64,000 nucleotides of DNA from Bacteroidales bacterium. Lineage in GTDB: Bacteria; Bacteroidota; Bacteroidia; Bacteroidales; Muribaculaceae. Position numbers and translations under genes: made by a program. The notes under the pieces were generated by a model. That model ran no database searches. It worked only from the letters and a program-made list of their open reading frames with translations, and was not told the DNA's origin. Shown one piece after another: positions 4,896 through 56,957 of the stretch (the first letter of the stretch is position 1; every line of letters starts with the position of its first letter). The stretch lies in NCBI GenBank assembly GCA_015061085.1, contig SUXG01000002.1:62001-126000 (forward strand). Direction: 5' to 3'.

Positions 4896-6851
4896 TTATG
4901 AAATTTCTGTATCATCTTCAACTACAAGATTATCGATAATAAATCCTTGTCGAGTCATAGTGTTCTTACCCATGTAGAACTCCAATAATTTCTCTACATT
5001 GTCGTCTTTCTTTAATTTTACAGGGTCAAGACGAATTTCAGGACCGATGAAATCCTTAAATTCATCAGGGTTGATTTCTCCAAGACCTTTAAATCGTGTG
5101 ATTTCGGCATTGTTGCCAAGACGCTCAATGGCTGCTATTCGCTCTTCATCGGTGTAGCAATAGAATGTGTCTTTTTCGGTATCATCCGATTCTGCTTTCT
5201 TCTTTTTTGACCCTCTGGCTTTTACCAATTTTTTATTTCTTACGCGGAACAACGGCGTTTGTAAAATATAAACATGGCCTTTCTTTACCAAATCGGGGAA
5301 GAATGTCAAGAAGAATGTCAGAACCAGCAGACGTATGTGCATACCATCGACATCGGCATCGGTGGCAATAATGATTTTATTATATCTTAATCCTTCAAGT
5401 CCGTCTTCAATATTCAAGGCTGCTTGTAGCAAATTGAACTCCTCGTTTTTATATATGATTTCTTGTGTCAAGCCGTATGTATTCAAAGGTTTTCCTCGCA
5501 AAGAAAATACTGCTTGTGTCTGAGCATCACGCACCTTTGTGATTGTTCCTGAAGCAGAATCACCCTCGGTTACAAAAATAGCTGTCTGCTCGCGTAAATC
5601 CTCTTTTGCCGACGACTTCAATGTGTCGTTGTAGTGAATGTTGCAGTCGCGCAATTTGCGATTGTGCAGACTGGCTGTCTTTGCGCGTTCGCGTGCCAAT
5701 TTGGTCACGCCCGCCATCGCTTTGCGCTCTTTTTCGCTACGTTGGATTTTCTTAAGCATAATCTCCGTAGTGTCCGGATTCTTATGCAGATAGTTGTCAA
5801 GCTCAAGCTTGATGAAATCACCGATGAATTTGTTAATCGTAATCGGGCTGTCGGGAGCAATCTCTTTGCTTCCAAGCTTGGTCTTTGTCTGCGACTCAAA
5901 CACAGGCTCTTGTATTCGCACACTGATAGCAGCCACCATACCATTTCGGATGTCAGAATACTCGAAGCCTTTTCCGAAGTGCTCTTTTATTGTGCGGGAG
6001 ACTGCCTCACGAAATGCTGTCAAGTGAGTGCCACCCTGAGTTGTGTGCTGTCCATTGACGAAAGAGTAATACTCTTCGCCGTATTGCTCTGTGTGGGTGA
6101 GTACAAATTCGATGTCATCGCCTTTTATGTGCAGAATAGGATATAACGGATCTGCGGTCATGTTTTCCTTTAAAAGGTCTAAAAGCCCATGACGAGATAT
6201 GTAGCGTTTGCCGTTAAAAAAGATTGCCAACCCGGAATTGAGATAAGTATAATTATTGACCATTGTTTCCACAAAGTCAAGATTGTACTTATACTCCCTG
6301 AAAAGTGAGTTATCAGGTACAAAACGCACCATCGTTCCGTTTGGCTCGGTGGTAGGCAAAATCGATGTGTGCTCAACGAGATTTCCTCGTTCAAACACTA
6401 CTTTTACACATTCGCCGTCGCGATGGCTGACCACTTCACAATATGTCGATAATGCATTGACAGCCTTAAGACCGACGCCATTAAGACCAACCGACTTCTT
6501 AAAGTTCTTATCGTCAAACTTACCTCCGGTGTTGATTTCAGACGCGACATCTTTTACTTTGCCCAACGGAATTCCTCGTCCGTAGTCACGAACCATAACC
6601 TCTCCATCTTCGCTAATAGTAATGTCGATCTGTTTACCGACACCCATATTAAATTCGTCGATAGAGTTGTCGATTACCTCTTTTATCAACACATATATAC
6701 CGTCCTCGGCATGTGAGCCATCGCCTAATTTCCCGATATACATACCCGGACGGCGACGAATATGTTCGTTCCATTCAAGAGTCTGAATAGCACTGTCATC
6801 ATAGCTTGACAACACTGTAGAATCTTGTGTTATATCTTCGTTTTCTGCCAT
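4896..6851 (-). CDS. parE: DNA topoisomerase IV subunit B (type IIA ATPase/toprim subunit)
   Basis: ATP-hydrolysing subunit that partners ParC in decatenating chromosomes. About 651 residues: GHKL ATPase with '[10 protein letters not shown]' and 'GRGIPLG', transducer domain, then toprim with 'EGDSASG' and '[10 protein letters not shown]'. The shorter C-terminal region and sequence style fit Bacteroidetes ParE better than GyrB, but the two are paralogues. Start taken at the ATG at 6849-6851; an in-frame TTG lies 12 bp upstream. parC is not adjacent. First gene of a minus-strand operon running to 188. Confidence 0.88.
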
Positions 6852-18054: not shown

Positions 18055-18176
18055 ATACCTATCGGGGTATCTATGTGTCTGTGGTGTATAGTGTTTAAGG
18101 TAAAGTCACTTTGGGATTTTGTCAGCCGAGTGTTCGTGATGTCGTGGTTACCCCGAATGGGGGTTACACTTCGGTT
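18055..18176. repeat. Diverged palindromic elements related to the 47-48 kb array
   Basis: ATACCTATCGGGGTAT at 18055-18070 and a 31-nt block at 18146-18176 (GGTTACCCCGAATGGGGG then TTACACTTCGGTT). The second block is nearly the reverse complement of the array element at 47487-47519 and 47822-47854. They lie in the 750 bp spacer before the fimbrillin-like gene, which otherwise contains no gene I can support. Confidence 0.65.
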
Positions 18177-18441
18177 CTTTTAGCCCTTTTCGGCGTTTTA
18201 AGCCTTTTTAGGGTGTATAAGTTATTTCTAACTGCATAAATATACTATGATGTAATGGGTATATACTTGTCGGGATGATGCGTCGTCGGTTGTTGCACTA
18301 TAGTATAATGAATTGCACCGGATTATAGGCAGACTTTGTGTGTCGGATATCAGTTCGTGGAATTACGCTGTCAAGGTGTTTTATAAAATATTGCAAATCA
18401 GTAAAGTAAATAATTTTTCAAAATTATTAACATTTATTAAC

Positions 18442-43360: not shown

Positions 43361-46300
43361 ATGAAAAAGCTTGTTTTTTTATTACTCGTGTTCATGTTAA
43401 CCTCAACGATTAACATGTTTGCCTCATCAGCACAAGATCATGATGGTAATGTAATAGAATATGAATTTACTCCTCCTGCAGGAACATATTCAGCAGATGA
43501 TTTACAAAGTATAAAGTTGGTTTTCCCGAATGCAACGACACTTTCTGGAATGGCAGGCGATCAAAAGATTTATGTTAGAAGAAAAACTCCAAGTGGGGAT
43601 ACAAGCTATTCTAAACAAATCTCAGCAAATGGGAATGTGCTTACAATTGATGAATTTTTCCCTGTTAGTGCTGCTTTCGAGCAAGGTACTTTTGCTTATG
43701 GAACATGGGAACTATTTATATACGGATTTCAAATTTATGTAGATGGACAATATCTTGATACAGATATATCTGTTAAGTATAACATAGTACCTCCGGGTTT
43801 CCAATTCGAATCGGCAGTGCCGGCTAATGGCGCGACAGTCAATCGTCTCGACGAAATCGTTGTTGACTTCGCTACAGGAAGCGTGCTTACCGGTAGTGCT
43901 ACAGTCAATGTTGGAGGCGTAGAGGCTACATTTGCTCCGACAGAAAATGCAGGACAAGTGAAGGCTACACTTTCACCGGCAATAGTAGCTGAGGGCAACT
44001 ATTCTATCACAATTCCTGCAGGAGCATTTACCGCTACTGACGGAACAAGTAATAGTGAAATGACATTGAATTATAGCGTCGTTCTTCCTGAAATGGATGC
44101 TAATGAAATCACAGTCGCTCCTGCCAACGGAAGAAATGTGCTCGGATTGAACACAATCAGTCTGACATTCCCTGAAGCAATCACTATCAATGAAAATGTC
44201 GGCGCTATCACACTCAGCAACGGCGCAATAATAGATAATGTGGCTGTCAATCAAAATGTCGTTACTATCACAGCATCAGCAGAATGGCAACTTGGTGCAT
44301 ACGCACTCAATGTGCCGGCAGGTTATTTCGTAAGCGAAAATGCTAAGAGCCCTGCACTCAACTATTCATGGAACATCATCGCAGCTTCATTAGGCGTTGA
44401 AGACTTCTTTATCTTCGGCGGAGAAGAAAAAGATGTTGCTATTCTCTTAAACGGCGAAGCTGAATTTGTGGGCTTCCAAGCAGACATCACATTGCCGGAA
44501 GGTCTTGAAGTAGTCGGTGGCTTCGTGTTAAACAGAGGTACTGACCATGTGTTCTCAACAAAAGCTCAAGCCAACGGAGCAATCCGTCTGTTGAGCTACT
44601 CTCTTACTAATGCAAAATATACAGGCAATAGCGGCGATGCATTGGTGACATTCAGAGTGAAAGCAGCCGACGATTTCAATGGCGTGAAACAGATAGCAAT
44701 CAATGGAATCACATTCGCTACAAAAGAGGGTGTTGAGTTTGAATTGGAACCACAGACAGCAAATGTCGAAGGACGCTTACATGTATCGTCTATCACAATC
44801 GATCCTGCAGAATTGAATCTCGAAACGAATGAAACTGCAACAGTCGAAGCGACAGTGCTTCCTGAAGCAGCATACGATAAGACTTTCGTATGGAGCTCTT
44901 CTAACGCTGAATATGTGACAGTCGATGAAAATGGTCTTGTAAAGGCTATCAAACCGACAGAAGCAGAAAATCCTGTATATATCATCGCAACAGCTCAAGA
45001 CGGCTCTGGCGTGAAAGCTCAAATCCCTGTGACAGTGGTTTATACTCATGCGACAGCTCTTACAATCGAACCTGCGACTGTGCTCTTCGAAGTAGGCAAT
45101 CGTCAGACATTGACAGCAGTTCTCGATAAGGAAACAAATAAGTCAGGCGATGTCATCTGGACATCAAGCAACCCTGCAGTGGCAGAAATCGTTATCACAG
45201 AAGGTGTGGTGGAAGTAGTAGGTAAGAGCATCGGTGATGCTAACATCAAAGCACAGATAAAGAATGGTGAAGAGGTAGTGCTGACAGCGACTATCCCTGT
45301 GAAGGTAGATGCAACAATAGCTACATCTGTGACAGTCGAACCGGCAGAATTGACACTCGAATCAGGACAGAAATTCACATTTACAGCAGTAGTAAATACT
45401 GAAGCAACAAATAAGAATGTGCTTTGGACATCATCAGATCCTGCAAAGGTTGCTATCAACGAAACAACCGGTGAGGTGGAAGCTCTCGCACTTACAGACA
45501 GCCCTGTGACAATCACAGCGACAGCAGCAGATGGCGGTGGTGCATACGGTACAGCTCAAGTGAAAGTCGTTCAATCACTTGCTACAGGCATCGTTCTTAA
45601 TATTACAGAAGTAGAACTTGAAGCTACAGGCGACGAAAACGGTCAAGTGCAATTGACAGCTACAGTGACACCTCCGACAAATAAGAAAGTCATTTGGAAA
45701 TCAAGCAAAGAAGATGTAGCTCAAGTTGACGAAAACGGTCTTGTTACAGCAATCGGTGTTGGTGTAGCAGAAATCACAGCAACAATCGAAGGTACAGCAT
45801 TGACAGCAACATGTACAGTGACAGTCAATCCTTCTTATGCGACAAACGTTGTAATCAATTATGAAGGTGCAACAAAATTCGAAACAGGATCTGAGGCTGA
45901 TATCCAATTGGCGGCAACAGTGGCACCAAGCTATGTGACAGACAATACAGTAGCATGGACATCTTCAGACAACGATATTGCACAGGTGGATGAAAATGGT
46001 AAAGTGACTATCGGTCAAAAGACAGGTGTAGTGACAATCACAGCGACAGCTAATGGTGCTGCAGAAGGACAAGAAGTGAAAGCAACTATCGATTTCGAAG
46101 TGGTTCACACATTTGCAACAACACTCAGCATCGACCAAGAACCATTCACACTCAAAGCAAATGAAACTCAACAGTTGACAGTGACATTAGACAATGCTAC
46201 AAATAAAGATATCGTATGGGAATCAAACGATGAAAAGGTAGCTAAAGTTGACGAAAATGGTATTGTTACAGCAATCGGCGTTGGTGAAGCAACAATCACA

Positions 46301-47176
46301 GCGACACTCGAAGGTACGGAAATTAAAGACACAGTAGTTGTTACAGTAGAGGCAACTGATGGTGATGTCAACAACGATGCACTTGTGGATGTAGCCGACG
46401 TTACAGCGACAGCATCATATATTCTTGGCGATGAAGTGGATCCGTTTATCGTAGCGGCAGCCGACATCAATGCAGATGGCAAAATTAATGTGACAGATAT
46501 CGTCTTATTGGTTAATATTATCCTTACACAAGATGATAACGATGCACAACAAGCAGCTATCAATAGAGTGCGTCAAAATGTCAATAGTAACAATAGCTTG
46601 TCAATCGAAGACTTCTCAATCGAAGAAGGCGAAACAAAACAAATCGCAATCAGACTTGACAACGTAGATGCGTTTACAGCATTCCAAGCAGATATCTACT
46701 TGCCGGAAGGTCTTGAAATCTGCCAAAATGGTGTAGCATTGTCAGACAGAAAGAGCAACGATCACGTAATAGCATCTGCATTGAGAAACAATGGCTCAGT
46801 ACGTATGTTGAGCTACTCACTCTCACTCAATGAATATGCAGAATCTAATGGTGATTTAGTTTACTTGACAATCAAAGCGGCAGAAGGATTTATCGGTGAC
46901 TTCCAAATCGAAATCGATAATATCACATTCGTCAAAGCAGATCAGACTAAGTGCTACTTTGCTCCTGCAGTATCTAATGTGAAAGGTACAGAATATGTAG
47001 GCGTAGAAGGCGTAGAAGGCGACGAAATCGTAGTTAAGGTTGTAGGCAACTCAATCGTAGCTCCTGAAGGTGCTGAAGTTTATGACATCAATGGTCTTCG
47101 AGTAAACGCAGAAAACCTTGCTAAGGGTATCTACATCGTGAAAGTTGGCGACCAAGTAGTGAAAGTAATCATCTAA
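43361..47176 (+). CDS. Secreted Ig-like/cohesin-like/dockerin multidomain protein with T9SS tail
   Basis: 1271 residues. Signal peptide 1-22; N-terminal beta domain (30-145); two Big_5-like domains (150-340); a cohesin-like domain (344-470, 'FVGFQADITLPEGLEV'); six BIG2 domains (474-997, 'WSSSNAEYVTVDENGLV' type); a type I dockerin (1000-1054) with two calcium loops ('DVNNDALVDVADV', 'DINADGKINVTDI'); a second cohesin-like domain (1078-1210); and a type IX secretion tail ('EVYDINGLRV...KGIYIVK'). A surface adhesin or scaffold is likely. The two cohesin-like domains share 'AFQADIYLPEGLE', so they arose by duplication. A terminator follows at 47199. Confidence 0.85.
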   Translation: MKKLVFLLLVFMLTSTINMFASSAQDHDGNVIEYEFTPPAGTYSADDLQSIKLVFPNATTLSGMAGDQKIYVRRKTPSGDTSYSKQISANGNVLTIDEFFPVSAAFEQGTFAYGTWELFIYGFQIYVDGQYLDTDISVKYNIVPPGFQFESAVPANGATVNRLDEIVVDFATGSVLTGSATVNVGGVEATFAPTENAGQVKATLSPAIVAEGNYSITIPAGAFTATDGTSNSEMTLNYSVVLPEMDANEITVAPANGRNVLGLNTISLTFPEAITINENVGAITLSNGAIIDNVAVNQNVVTITASAEWQLGAYALNVPAGYFVSENAKSPALNYSWNIIAASLGVEDFFIFGGEEKDVAILLNGEAEFVGFQADITLPEGLEVVGGFVLNRGTDHVFSTKAQANGAIRLLSYSLTNAKYTGNSGDALVTFRVKAADDFNGVKQIAINGITFATKEGVEFELEPQTANVEGRLHVSSITIDPAELNLETNETATVEATVLPEAAYDKTFVWSSSNAEYVTVDENGLVKAIKPTEAENPVYIIATAQDGSGVKAQIPVTVVYTHATALTIEPATVLFEVGNRQTLTAVLDKETNKSGDVIWTSSNPAVAEIVITEGVVEVVGKSIGDANIKAQIKNGEEVVLTATIPVKVDATIATSVTVEPAELTLESGQKFTFTAVVNTEATNKNVLWTSSDPAKVAINETTGEVEALALTDSPVTITATAADGGGAYGTAQVKVVQSLATGIVLNITEVELEATGDENGQVQLTATVTPPTNKKVIWKSSKEDVAQVDENGLVTAIGVGVAEITATIEGTALTATCTVTVNPSYATNVVINYEGATKFETGSEADIQLAATVAPSYVTDNTVAWTSSDNDIAQVDENGKVTIGQKTGVVTITATANGAAEGQEVKATIDFEVVHTFATTLSIDQEPFTLKANETQQLTVTLDNATNKDIVWESNDEKVAKVDENGIVTAIGVGEATITATLEGTEIKDTVVVTVEATDGDVNNDALVDVADVTATASYILGDEVDPFIVAAADINADGKINVTDIVLLVNIILTQDDNDAQQAAINRVRQNVNSNNSLSIEDFSIEEGETKQIAIRLDNVDAFTAFQADIYLPEGLEICQNGVALSDRKSNDHVIASALRNNGSVRMLSYSLSLNEYAESNGDLVYLTIKAAEGFIGDFQIEIDNITFVKADQTKCYFAPAVSNVKGTEYVGVEGVEGDEIVVKVVGNSIVAPEGAEVYDINGLRVNAENLAKGIYIVKVGDQVVKVII

Positions 47177-47198
47177 TCATCTCGCTTTATAACTCGGA

Positions 47199-47232
47199 AA
47201 GGTCATCGGGCTTCGGCTCGGTGGCCTTTTTC
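47199..47232 (+). terminator. Terminator of the Ig/dockerin gene
   Basis: Stem of 13 pairs allowing G-T (AAGGTCATCGGGC / GCTCGGTGGCCTT) closed by a TTCG tetraloop, followed by TTTTT. Confidence 0.92.
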
Positions 47233-47248
47233 CTTTTTGCGCGTGAGC

Positions 47249-48211
47249 GATACCCCGACCGGGGTATTATTTCGATAACCGGTGGTAAACGAGCGAAGCG
47301 AGTGCCACCACCGGCATGATAGCATATAGATACACCTACCCCGACCGGGGTTGCACACCGGCTATATTGCCATACACTCATATACCATGTACGTATGTGA
47401 GTCGATGTACTACCCGCTTCGGGGTAGTTTGTCGGTGTGGTTCTATATCCACGGGTGACGCTCGCCTGACGGCTTCGCTTACCCGCGGTTACCGAAGTGT
47501 AACCCCTATCGGGGTAGCCACTACGCCGGGTGTATGCTGTGTGTCTGACTCGGTGTATATCGTACATGGCGAGAGGTAAGAGTGATACCCCGAACGGGGT
47601 ATTATTTCGATAACCGGTGGTAAACGAGCGAAGCGAGTGTCACCACCGGAATGATAGCATATAGATATACCTACCCCGACCGGGGTTGCACACCGGCTAT
47701 ATTGCCATACACTCATATACCATGTACGTATGTGAGTCGATGTACTACCCGCTTCGGGGTAGTTTGTCGGTGTGGTTCTATATCCACGGGTGACGCTCGC
47801 CTGACGGCTTCGCTCACCCGCGGTTACCGAAGTGTAACCCCTATCGGGGTAGCCACTACGCCGGGTGCATCTTGCGTGTCTGACACGGTGCATATCGTAC
47901 ATGGCGAGAGATGAGAGCGATACCCCGACCGGGGTAGCCACTACGTCGGGTGCATCTTGCGTGTCTGACTCGGTGCATATCGGCATATAGCGAGTGGTAA
48001 GAGTGTAACCCCTATCGGGGTAGCCACTACGTCGGGTGCATCTTGCGTGTCTGACTCGGTGCATATCGGTACATAGCGAGAGGTGAGAGTGATACCCCGA
48101 ACGGGGTATTATTTCGATAACCGGTGGTAAACGAGCGAAGCGAGTGCCACCACCGGCATGATAGCATATAGATACACCTACCCCGACCGGGGTTGCGCAC
48201 CGGCTGCGCTG
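47249..48211. repeat. GC-rich array of 335-bp units rich in hairpins
   Basis: Full units begin at 47249 and 47584 (exactly 335 bp), each a 249-250 bp long segment plus an 85-86 bp short segment. A second-unit end at 47919 leads into two short segments (47919-48004, 48005-48090) and a truncated long segment (48091-48211). Every unit carries nested palindromes: TACCCCG/CGGGGTA, CCGGTGGT/ACCACCGG (47279-47314), ACTCATATAC/GTATGTGAGT, CTACCC/GGGTAG, CGGGTGA/TCACCCG and GGTTAC/GTAACC. 335 is not a multiple of three, and frames read through it change register, so it is non-coding. Base composition is far more GC-rich than its surroundings. Confidence 0.9.
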
Positions 48212-48304
48212 TCTGAGATATTATGCGTATTGATGTCGTAAGGAATGTGTTGTGCTTGTGAATTTGGTAGTTTTGATAAATTTGAACAAAATTTACGAAA
48301 AATG

Positions 48305-48335
48305 TTGGTAAATTGAATGTTTTTATCTAAATTTG
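48305..48335 (+). promoter_or_regulatory. Promoter of the PDZ gene
   Basis: TTG (48305-48307), 20 bp, TAAATTTG (48328-48335), 40 bp upstream of the ATG and about 95 bp after the array end. Confidence 0.75.
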
Positions 48336-48374
48336 CTTGCTGAACGATTATGTTTAATTAATAATGATTTTGCC

Positions 48375-49850
48375 ATGAAAACAAGAAAAATTACGACCAT
48401 TGCACTATGTATGTTGCTGTTTTTAGGTAATTCCCTAATCGGGCATGCGGCAGATAAAGTCGATGCAAGTTTCAAAGCCAAAAGATTGGAGTATTATGCG
48501 CCAAATAATCTTACAATCACGCATTTGTATAGCGCTCTGTTTATGAATGACATCACTTGCGACAGTACAGGACTGCGTTTGTATGACATCTTGCTTGCAG
48601 TAAATGGACAAGATGTCAATAAAATGTCGGATGATGAATTGAATAAATTGCTTTGGACATCGAGCAGAGTCGATTTGACTATAATTTCATCAGTCGATTG
48701 GAACGAGCATACATTCAGCTATACTCCGATCAATTTAGACCTCGAAGGTAGAAATGAATTGTTTGAAAATGCCCCTACCGAATTCTTTCGTATCCATAAC
48801 AACAACGAACGCCTAAATATGAGAGTTAACTCGGATTTGGAAGTCGATTTTTCACAATACAAGACTATCGATATCTTGTTCTTAGGCGATGACTTGAGAG
48901 AAAAATCTATTGCCAAGCAGGCTATGAACACAATCATAGAAAAAAGCCACTTCCCGATAAAACGCGATACGGAAAATCCCGATTTGCTTATCACTGTGGC
49001 ATGCGATGAAAGACACAGTGTAAGCTCAACATACGTTCCTCCGACAACGAGCTATGTTGACCAGGGTTCATATTCTACAGTCACTAAGACCAAATCAGGA
49101 TTTTATGTTAACACTTTCAAGCGCCCACCACTAAAGAAAACCGAGGGAGGCTACAATGTTGACCAGACATCGACCTATCATTATGTGGAAATCACAGTAT
49201 TAGATGCCAAGAAAATGCTTGACCCGGCAACACAAAGTGCTCCAATCGTATGGCAATTGGTTTACGACAAAACATTTGACTATGCCGAAAACTTCAACCG
49301 AATCATAAACACCTACGTGATGGACAATCTCAAATCATTCCCTCATGTATCGAGATTTGACGTGCCGTGGTCATGGTATTCAGGAATATGCTGGCAGGAA
49401 GACGCGAAGAAATCAATCATTGCCGACGTGATGAAAAACTCTCCGGCAGAAAAGATGGGACTCAAAGCAGGCGACGAAATTCTCAAAATCAACAACAAAA
49501 AGGATGACGCACTCACTCTATACACATATTACGACTCAAAATGTATTGACTCTAAAAAGGAATACAAAACCGTTGACTTTTTAGGTGACACATTTTACAC
49601 ATATTTCTATTTCGGCAAAGTGCCTTTCTACAAAGCTGTTGCTCGATTAAAAACATATGGACCTCAATACGCACACTTCTTCTATCAAAATCAATATGTC
49701 ACAAAACAATTTGACCAACTTGAATTTGATGCACCAAAATGGATGTATGACCAAAGCGAAGTCGAAGTGTTAGTCAAGCGAAATGGCAAGAAGCTAAAAC
49801 TGAAAGGTGTCTTATATGACTTAATGCCAGCCTATTGGTATGGTCTGTAA
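48375..49850 (+). CDS. Exported protein with two PDZ-like domains
   Basis: 491 residues. The ATG at 48375 gives an immediate signal peptide (to about 27). A PDZ-like segment near residues 55-110 ('GLRLYDILLAVNGQDVNKM'), a central domain resembling DUF4136-type lipoprotein folds ('YKTIDILFLGDD', 'NPDLLITVACDE'), and a second PDZ near 360-410 ('MKNSPAEKMGLKAGDEILKINN'). No protease domain is present, so it probably scaffolds or senses proteins in the periplasm. I do not recognise the full architecture. Confidence 0.75.
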   Translation: MKTRKITTIALCMLLFLGNSLIGHAADKVDASFKAKRLEYYAPNNLTITHLYSALFMNDITCDSTGLRLYDILLAVNGQDVNKMSDDELNKLLWTSSRVDLTIISSVDWNEHTFSYTPINLDLEGRNELFENAPTEFFRIHNNNERLNMRVNSDLEVDFSQYKTIDILFLGDDLREKSIAKQAMNTIIEKSHFPIKRDTENPDLLITVACDERHSVSSTYVPPTTSYVDQGSYSTVTKTKSGFYVNTFKRPPLKKTEGGYNVDQTSTYHYVEITVLDAKKMLDPATQSAPIVWQLVYDKTFDYAENFNRIINTYVMDNLKSFPHVSRFDVPWSWYSGICWQEDAKKSIIADVMKNSPAEKMGLKAGDEILKINNKKDDALTLYTYYDSKCIDSKKEYKTVDFLGDTFYTYFYFGKVPFYKAVARLKTYGPQYAHFFYQNQYVTKQFDQLEFDAPKWMYDQSEVEVLVKRNGKKLKLKGVLYDLMPAYWYGL

Positions 49851-49963
49851 TGGCTATCGATAATCCAAAACGATGTTATAAAACGCATTATCCGGTCAGG
49901 TCTTTCGATCTGATTGGATATTCTTTTATTGTGGTGGCAAAACGGCAGTTTGGTGCGAGTGGA

Positions 49964-49995
49964 TTTGCAGTTAATCGCAATAATCATTAAATTTG
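49964..49995 (+). promoter_or_regulatory. Promoter of the esterase gene
   Basis: TTTG (49964-49967), 20 bp, TAAATTTG (49988-49995), 25 bp upstream of the ATG. Confidence 0.78.
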
Positions 49996-50002
49996 CAGTT
50001 AG

Positions 50003-51178
<1,176 letters not shown>

Positions 51179-56910: not shown

Positions 56911-56957
56911 TGAAGTGACCCCAAAAGTTTGGACAAAAAACTTTTGGGGTCACTTCA
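56911..56957. terminator. Perfect 20-bp inverted repeat, probable bidirectional terminator
   Basis: TGAAGTGACCCCAAAAGTTT (56911-56930) and its exact reverse complement (56938-56957) flank GGACAAA. It separates the plus-strand gene ending at 56789 from fabG on the minus strand. The TGACCCCAAAAGTTTGGACA start is also reminiscent of IS3-family ends, so a relic of an insertion is possible. Confidence 0.7.

Follow-up and report, generated by a model that had tools for sequence, protein, structure and literature searches.

An intergenic hairpin array in a Muribaculaceae genome is probably a tandem cluster of tnpA-less copies of an element with a cognate Y1 transposase

What are the hairpin-packed tandem repeats between an adhesin gene and a PDZ-domain gene of this Bacteroidales bacterium (Muribaculaceae), and where did they come from? 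We analyzed a window of 64,000 nucleotides (nt), whose positions serve as coordinates here, together with the assembly it belongs to (G000; 2.16 Mb, 47 contigs, 81.5% complete). A first-pass annotation had marked a 335-base pair (bp) array in this window, at 47249 to 48211, and had offered several explanations for it. We consider it probable that the array consists of copies of a hairpin-ended mobile element, clustered in tandem at this locus; these copies lack the gene (tnpA) of the cognate Y1 transposase.

Tandem Repeats Finder reported a period of 335 at 47245-47936 (score 1286) and a period of 86 at 47837-48108 (score 432), and 300-nt repeats at a spacing of 335 were 97% identical. The array contains two 335-bp units with 14 differences in 335 positions. 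These are joined by a pair of short units of 86 bp and by a third unit that is truncated. It is GC-rich in an AT-rich region, as had been noted (GC content of 0.53-0.56 within the array vs 0.35-0.47 around it). Mechanically called open reading frames (ORFs) of up to 191 amino acids (aa) run across it; because 335 cannot be divided evenly by 3, the reading frame shifts between successive units.

The array had been described as built from modules of ~249 and ~86 bp; a palindrome map gives a simpler anatomy. The complete element has 268 bp and contains, in order, an outer palindrome, a tall hairpin with a TAACC tag, an inner palindrome, and a 56-bp filler (or tnpA, see below), followed by the mirror image. 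Six palindromes were mapped in each of the two full units, in line with the earlier count of at least six inverted repeats. Element 1 (47250-47517, + strand) is a complete tnpA-less unit. Its outer-left palindrome (47250-47267) is followed by the sequence ATTTCGA-TAACC (47269-47280, +) at the foot of the left tall hairpin (47276-47314, +). This tag fits a profile derived from 97 sites (see below), and we propose it as a putative recognition or cleavage site. Then come the inner-left palindrome (47336-47353), the filler (47354-47409, +), the inner-right palindrome (47410-47427), the right tall hairpin, which carries TAACC on the minus strand and mirrors the left one (47449-47491, -), and the outer-right palindrome (47500-47517). 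GTAG was also considered as a tag; it does occur in the array, yet none of the tall hairpins has it at its foot.

After a 67-bp spacer (47518-47584), the complete, tnpA-less element 2 follows (47585-47852, +; tall hairpins at 47611-47649, +, and 47784-47826, -). The 86-bp module is a spacer plus one outer palindrome. The first short unit has its lone outer palindrome at 47920-47937 and the second, of the right-palindrome type, at 48006-48023. The palindrome at 47920-47937 differs from the left outer palindrome in its last base alone, where it has the G of the right one; loss of the 249-bp core between two like palindromes would produce this. Element 3 (48092-48205, +) is truncated and has no right half; its outer-left palindrome, left tall hairpin, and inner-left palindrome lie at 48092-48109, 48118-48156 (+), and 48178-48195. 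Outer palindromes start at 47250, 47585, and 47920, which confirms the reported spacing of 335 bp. The third "unit", however, belongs to the short type, and the third left half begins at 48092.

Of 21 matches to the repeat unit in G000, 5 belong to the array; the other 16 are spread over 12 further places, and several of them are short and partial. One copy, on contig C8, contains an intact ORF of 149 aa between two halves of the repeat unit (left half 6022-6138, ORF 6194-6640, right half 6645-6763). Its product matches Pfam Y1_Tnp (E = 3.2e-24), passes the NCBIfam IS200/IS605 model NF033573 (71.5 bits, cut-off 55), and scores far below the cut-off of the model for REP-associated tyrosine transposases (RAYTs; NF047646, 19.2 bits, cut-off 80), where REP stands for repetitive extragenic palindromic sequence. 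Among Y1 transposases of known structure it resembles TnpA of IS608 and ISDra2 (PDB, E = 5.8e-7). By these matches, the ORF is classified as a HUH/Y1 transposase gene, tnpA. It is the single PF01797 match in G000, an assembly that is 81.5% complete. The array units share ancestry with this tnpA-bearing element, and because the C8 copy holds tnpA between the two unit halves, the window units are its tnpA-less (non-autonomous) derivatives. Matches to TnpA in phage (4) and plasmid (84) records all had less than 60% identity; the best among those listed reached 30.1% and 34.6%, respectively.

A TnpA relative (E<=1e-5) was found in 29 of 111 genus genomes, G000 counted, with 1-5 matches per matching congener. 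The TnpA of a sister species, G083, is 92% identical to that of G000. The two tnpA genes differ at 53 nt (7, 5, and 41 by codon position), with nonsynonymous and synonymous divergence (dN and dS) of 0.036 and 0.69, a pattern that indicates purifying selection. G083 also has 39 matches to the repeat unit; 15 of them, before weak ones are counted, surround tnpA on its contig C34, with tandem periods of 58, 85, 109, 203, and 261. At the DNA level, the 335-bp unit had no match in a sample of 60 relatives, which did not include G083. Of the 24 copies inspected in G000 and G083, the one with tnpA overlaps that ORF, and none of the 23 tnpA-less copies overlaps an ORF of at least 100 aa. The tnpA-less copies are thus dispersed in non-coding DNA. 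Beyond the outer palindromes, 10 copies of the window family had no sequence in common between loci within 250 bp (E<=0.01).

Two sites could be compared between the species. In G000, the tnpA element sits between the RNase P RNA gene, which is inverted, and a kinase gene; in G083, the RNase P RNA gene adjoins the kinase gene with no element between. At the window site, the adhesin homologue of G083 aligns up to window position 47229 and the next ORF follows 79 bp on, again with no element. The latter comparison was anchored on an esterase gene; the PDZ gene was matched in 1 of 111 genomes (G000 itself, E<=1e-20). In G083, the esterase side is inverted with respect to the tRNA-adhesin side, which places a rearrangement border within 47229-50108, the interval with both the array and the PDZ gene. 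Both compared sites (window 47229-50108; C8 5444-7004, L213) were seen to lie at rearrangement borders, and two cases of this kind are no more than suggestive. A gene beside another copy, on contig C45, has matches in 28 of 111 genomes (E<=1e-60), G083 not included.

Are the hairpins themselves maintained? In the tnpA loci described below, all five inner pairs were formed at 90 of 162 TAACC sites (37 distinct stems), vs 12.2 with arms swapped. For the window family, 30 hairpins from G000 and G083 were chosen by eye (26 distinct). In this set 99% of cells paired, and 17 cells were changed on both sides, compared with 6.0 +/- 1.6 after shuffling (0 of 500 shuffles as high) and at most 1 when partners were slid. 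The number of pairs with a two-sided change was 2, not above shuffles. The two-sided changes separate left from right hairpins and may therefore represent few events. The arms of the tall hairpins change together. The first-pass annotation had taken a TTACCCG/TCACCCG difference between units as a hint of selection on structure; this difference is real (T at 47480, C in unit 2), but a single site is weak evidence. At one further locus (L014, 1057-1095), the loop of the tall hairpin was seen in reverse sense with the TAACC tag in place, as if the hairpin had flipped.

The same arrangement was found around related transposase genes. We collected 80 tnpA loci (G000, 29 genus loci, and 50 loci from named genomes), 75 of which carry the signature Y---Q--HH; removal of 1 duplicate and 12 others left 67. 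The best match between left and right flanks had a median score of 84, vs 20 for 1038 control pairs (pairs of loci with <60% TnpA identity, either orientation), and 54 of the 67 loci exceeded the 99th percentile of the control (32). In an unguided k-mer count, TAACC was the top orientation-biased 5-mer, outward in 44 loci vs 15 opposite; by sites, 162 were outward and 72 opposite. TAACC-footed hairpins were mirrored on both sides of tnpA in 40 of 67 loci, while 12 control pentamers reached 0-3 of 67 in the same two-sided test. Among 11 usable loci of 13 IS200-type controls, the two-sided tag was found in 1 and matching flanks in 0. Upstream of TAACC, 97 hairpin-foot sites favored ATTTTCA (0.78, 0.84, 0.61, 0.86, 0.56, 0.48, 0.60); the A-T-.-T part was present at 49% of 169 outward and 29% of 82 opposite sites, and at 3% of 60 other TAACC sites in the window. 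Variant tags with the same layout were recognized by eye, e.g., TTAGG in L046 and L047, whose TnpAs carry WQ. The element can thus be defined by two mirrored tall hairpins with an ATTTTCA-TAACC-like tag at each foot, plus short palindromes.

Across 2211 pairs of loci, likeness of the upstream flanks followed TnpA identity: the flanks were alike in 0-1% of pairs below 60% identity, in 63% at 60-70%, and in 98-100% above 70%. Transposase and hairpins therefore co-diverge across Bacteroidetes.

Dispersed copies were also followed in genomes G135-G139, each of which has a single close tnpA copy, except G135 with two. A pattern read from tnpA-linked loci, TAACCGNAGGTCNNCGACCTNCGG, occurred 70 times in G137, 67 in G139, 6 in G135, 5 in G138, and 2 in G136; its reversed form occurred 0 times. 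Mirrored pairs with a distance of 100-101 bp are frequent among the G137 copies, and the six-palindrome layout recurs in copies of G137 and G139.

Several observations weigh against the view that the array is a cluster of tnpA-less copies of a Y1-dependent element. Mobilization of the units is an inference, and cleavage, excision, and movement were not observed. Many of the dispersed G000 copies are old and partial. Among the 67 loci, 13 had no flank match above the 99th percentile and 27 had no two-sided tag; with a control in which related pairs were kept and inverted matches only were counted, 22 of 67 exceeded the 99th percentile. TAACC in the opposite orientation was also often at a hairpin foot (52 of 72). 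The loci are related, and after clustering at 60% TnpA identity the two-sided tag was found in 12 of 27 clusters (tag on at least one side, 22 of 27; flank match, 21 of 27). Finally, many copies in G137 and G139 lie near other inverted ends. In G137, ends CCTGACTTTGAC/GTCAAAGTCAGG were near the hairpins in 18 of 20 fetched loci (19 of 20 by script, one of them a chance match within tnpA; both ends in 9). In G139, GTAACCGTTCACGGTAT-type ends were found in 12 of 20 loci, on both sides in 4 of 20.

These outer ends raise the question of whether the units are passengers, spread by another (DDE-type) transposase acting on outer terminal inverted repeats, while the cognate Y1 enzyme no longer moves them. 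In G137 (L148-L167), many mirrored hairpin pairs lie inside a ~300-bp repeat whose inverted ends of 12 bp are CCTGACTTTGAC/GTCAAAGTCAGG; this repeat seems to be a miniature inverted-repeat transposable element (MITE) with a captured REPIN-like unit (REPIN, a REP doublet forming a hairpin). Many G139 copies (L178-L197) lie near GTAACCGTTCACGGTAT-type inverted ends unlike those of G137. Spread in these two genomes may therefore be due to another enzyme. No clear target-site duplication was seen by eye at the G137 borders. On the other hand, the G137 tnpA copy is without CCTGACTTTGAC/GTCAAAGTCAGG ends, the outer ends vary by genome whereas the TAACC layout is constant, and the 10 window-family copies have no common sequence beyond their outer palindromes. 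As a general explanation, passenger spread is therefore unlikely.

Could the hairpins instead act in a transcript, as a regulatory RNA, a terminator cluster, or an mRNA stabilizer? The stems covary, and the array lies between genes, after a terminator-like stem. This stem (47196-47231, +; 16 pairs and a T tail), found by a scan, stands behind the adhesin gene and is not part of the element, whose left neighbor it marks. The scan yielded 1 site vs a shuffle mean of 1.0, a count not above shuffles, so it is only the length of the stem that argues for a terminator. Promoter-like sites (2) were below the shuffled mean (2.4), and the separate promoter postulated downstream of the array was not shown. 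At the gathering threshold, Rfam had no family in the array, and its matches in the window were three tRNAs elsewhere; two sub-threshold matches (E values 1.2 and 3.7) fell at the terminator. The earlier proposal of a structured RNA locus thus found no support. Moreover, in 40 of 67 loci the covarying stems flank a transposase gene as mirror images, an arrangement that recognition at the DNA level would directly explain. We regard an RNA function as very unlikely.

A purely local slippage satellite, kept for a chromosomal function such as binding of gyrase or integration host factor (IHF), is less credible still and has only a slim chance of being correct. The tandem periods of 335 and 86 do show local duplication, and REPs elsewhere bind such proteins (PMC6006769), but the dispersed copies and the embedded tnpA would stay unexplained. 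Binding of gyrase or nucleoid proteins could coexist with a mobile element, as a side effect. That the array is an artefact of a fragmented metagenome assembly (47 contigs, 81.5% complete) is highly improbable, since 14 positions differ between units, the same ends also form tandem arrays in G083, and G139 has tandem arrays with the same layout. We therefore retain the mobile element with its Y1 transposase as the best explanation. The intact Y1-bearing copy, the dispersed copies, and the hairpin arms that change together support one of the earlier suggestions, a REP-like element or bacterial interspersed mosaic element (BIME) expanded by a mobile source. The combination that the first-pass annotation had named as its refutation, neither covariation nor further copies in any genome, did not occur.

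Some features of the surroundings were recorded in addition. In G083, three or more homologues of the adhesin gene (43361-47176; Big_2 repeats, dockerin) stand in tandem (L275, L276). None of the other 110 genus genomes searched had a match (E<=1e-20) to the PDZ-domain gene beside the array (48375-49850). A second repeated stretch at 18139-18369 (TTTTCGGCGTTTTAAGCC...TGCATAAATATACTATGATG...), also seen at L016 and L022, occurs at no fewer than three places in G000, near weak hairpin matches. A near-perfect long palindrome at 56916-56952 (TGACCCCAAAAGTTT...AAACTTTTGGGGT) may represent a terminator or the paired ends of an insertion sequence.

How does the element relate to known systems of Y1 transposases and palindromes? 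In the sections of Quentin et al. 2018 (PMC6006769) on TnpAY1 subclass 1.2, this group has the signature Y---Q--HH, the W motif WQ (Table 1), a conserved C-terminal domain of its own, and a low genomic copy number, and it is recorded as having no REPs and generally no typical IS200 terminal structures. The automatic REP search described there required GT[AG]G, so TAACC palindromes would not be picked up. The G000 TnpA resembles subclass 1.2, as outlined in that paper, in its motifs (YIKNQKEHH, DHIH), its length of 149 aa, its Bacteroidetes host, and its low copy number. It differs in the W motif, which is WG in G000 (WQ was found in only 5 of 67 loci), and because of this deviation from the published table we call it "1.2-like". 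It also differs from the subclass as reported there in that cognate palindromes flank tnpA (matching flanks, 54 of 67 loci; mirrored TAACC, 40 of 67). The flanking structures of the 1.2-like loci are of neither the typical IS200 nor the GTAG kind.

The layout is like that of REPINs or BIMEs with their RAYTs (TnpA_REP; TnpAY1 class 2), as these are characterized in PMC6006769 and PMC3116915: palindromes tagged at the foot and arranged in mirrored pairs, located around and apart from a single-copy Y1 gene, species-specific and intergenic, and forming tandem clusters that take in flanking sequence. The tag, however, is TAACC and not GTAG or GTGG, the enzyme is class 1-like (Y...Q) and not RAYT-like (Y..NP), and each element has four extra short palindromes. 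The layout works in the manner of a REPIN/RAYT pair but departs from that family in two of its defining features (tag and enzyme class). With IS200/IS605 elements (TnpAY1 subclass 1.1), it shares a TnpA that passes the family model and hairpins near both ends, and an internally deleted IS200/IS605 copy would be tnpA-less, as the window units are. The IS608 ends lie on the same strand; compared with this geometry as generally understood, the ends here are mirror images (left tag +, right tag -). In addition, there are not several near-identical tnpA copies, but one in the 81.5% complete assembly. A MITE bounded by terminal inverted repeats of the DDE type is not matched either; the 10 window-family copies share no inverted ends outside the hairpins. 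In the open-access literature, with subscription papers mostly outside reach, we found no earlier description of TAACC palindromes or of palindromes associated with subclass 1.2.

By analogy with IS200/IS605 and REP Y1 enzymes, drawn from general background and from PMC6006769, PMC3733652, and PMC3116915, TnpA would recognize the tagged hairpins on single-stranded DNA, cleave in or beside the tag, and move tnpA-bearing and tnpA-less units alike, the latter in trans. Judging from its anatomy, the 335/86-bp array may then have grown and shrunk by slippage or by recombination between like palindromes, and the 86-bp modules would be units that lost (or never gained) the 249-bp core and kept one outer palindrome.

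On balance, and with less assurance than for the array itself, we favor the view that these loci represent a third partnership between Y1 transposases and palindromes, besides IS200/IS605 and REP/RAYT. Each 1.2-like TnpA would keep its own family of TAACC-tagged, mirrored six-hairpin elements, in which the palindromes diverge fast while tag and layout stay fixed, and which seed intergenic arrays. If so, a transposase subgroup of unknown role can be linked to a recognizable partner in DNA and to a motif open to testing (ATTTTCA-TAACC at the base of a covarying hairpin), and the hairpin-packed intergenic arrays of gut Bacteroidetes may find an explanation. Since a class 1 enzyme is combined here with a REPIN-like layout, the system would also offer an independent case for comparison in studies of the descent of REPIN-like elements from IS200-type ancestors.
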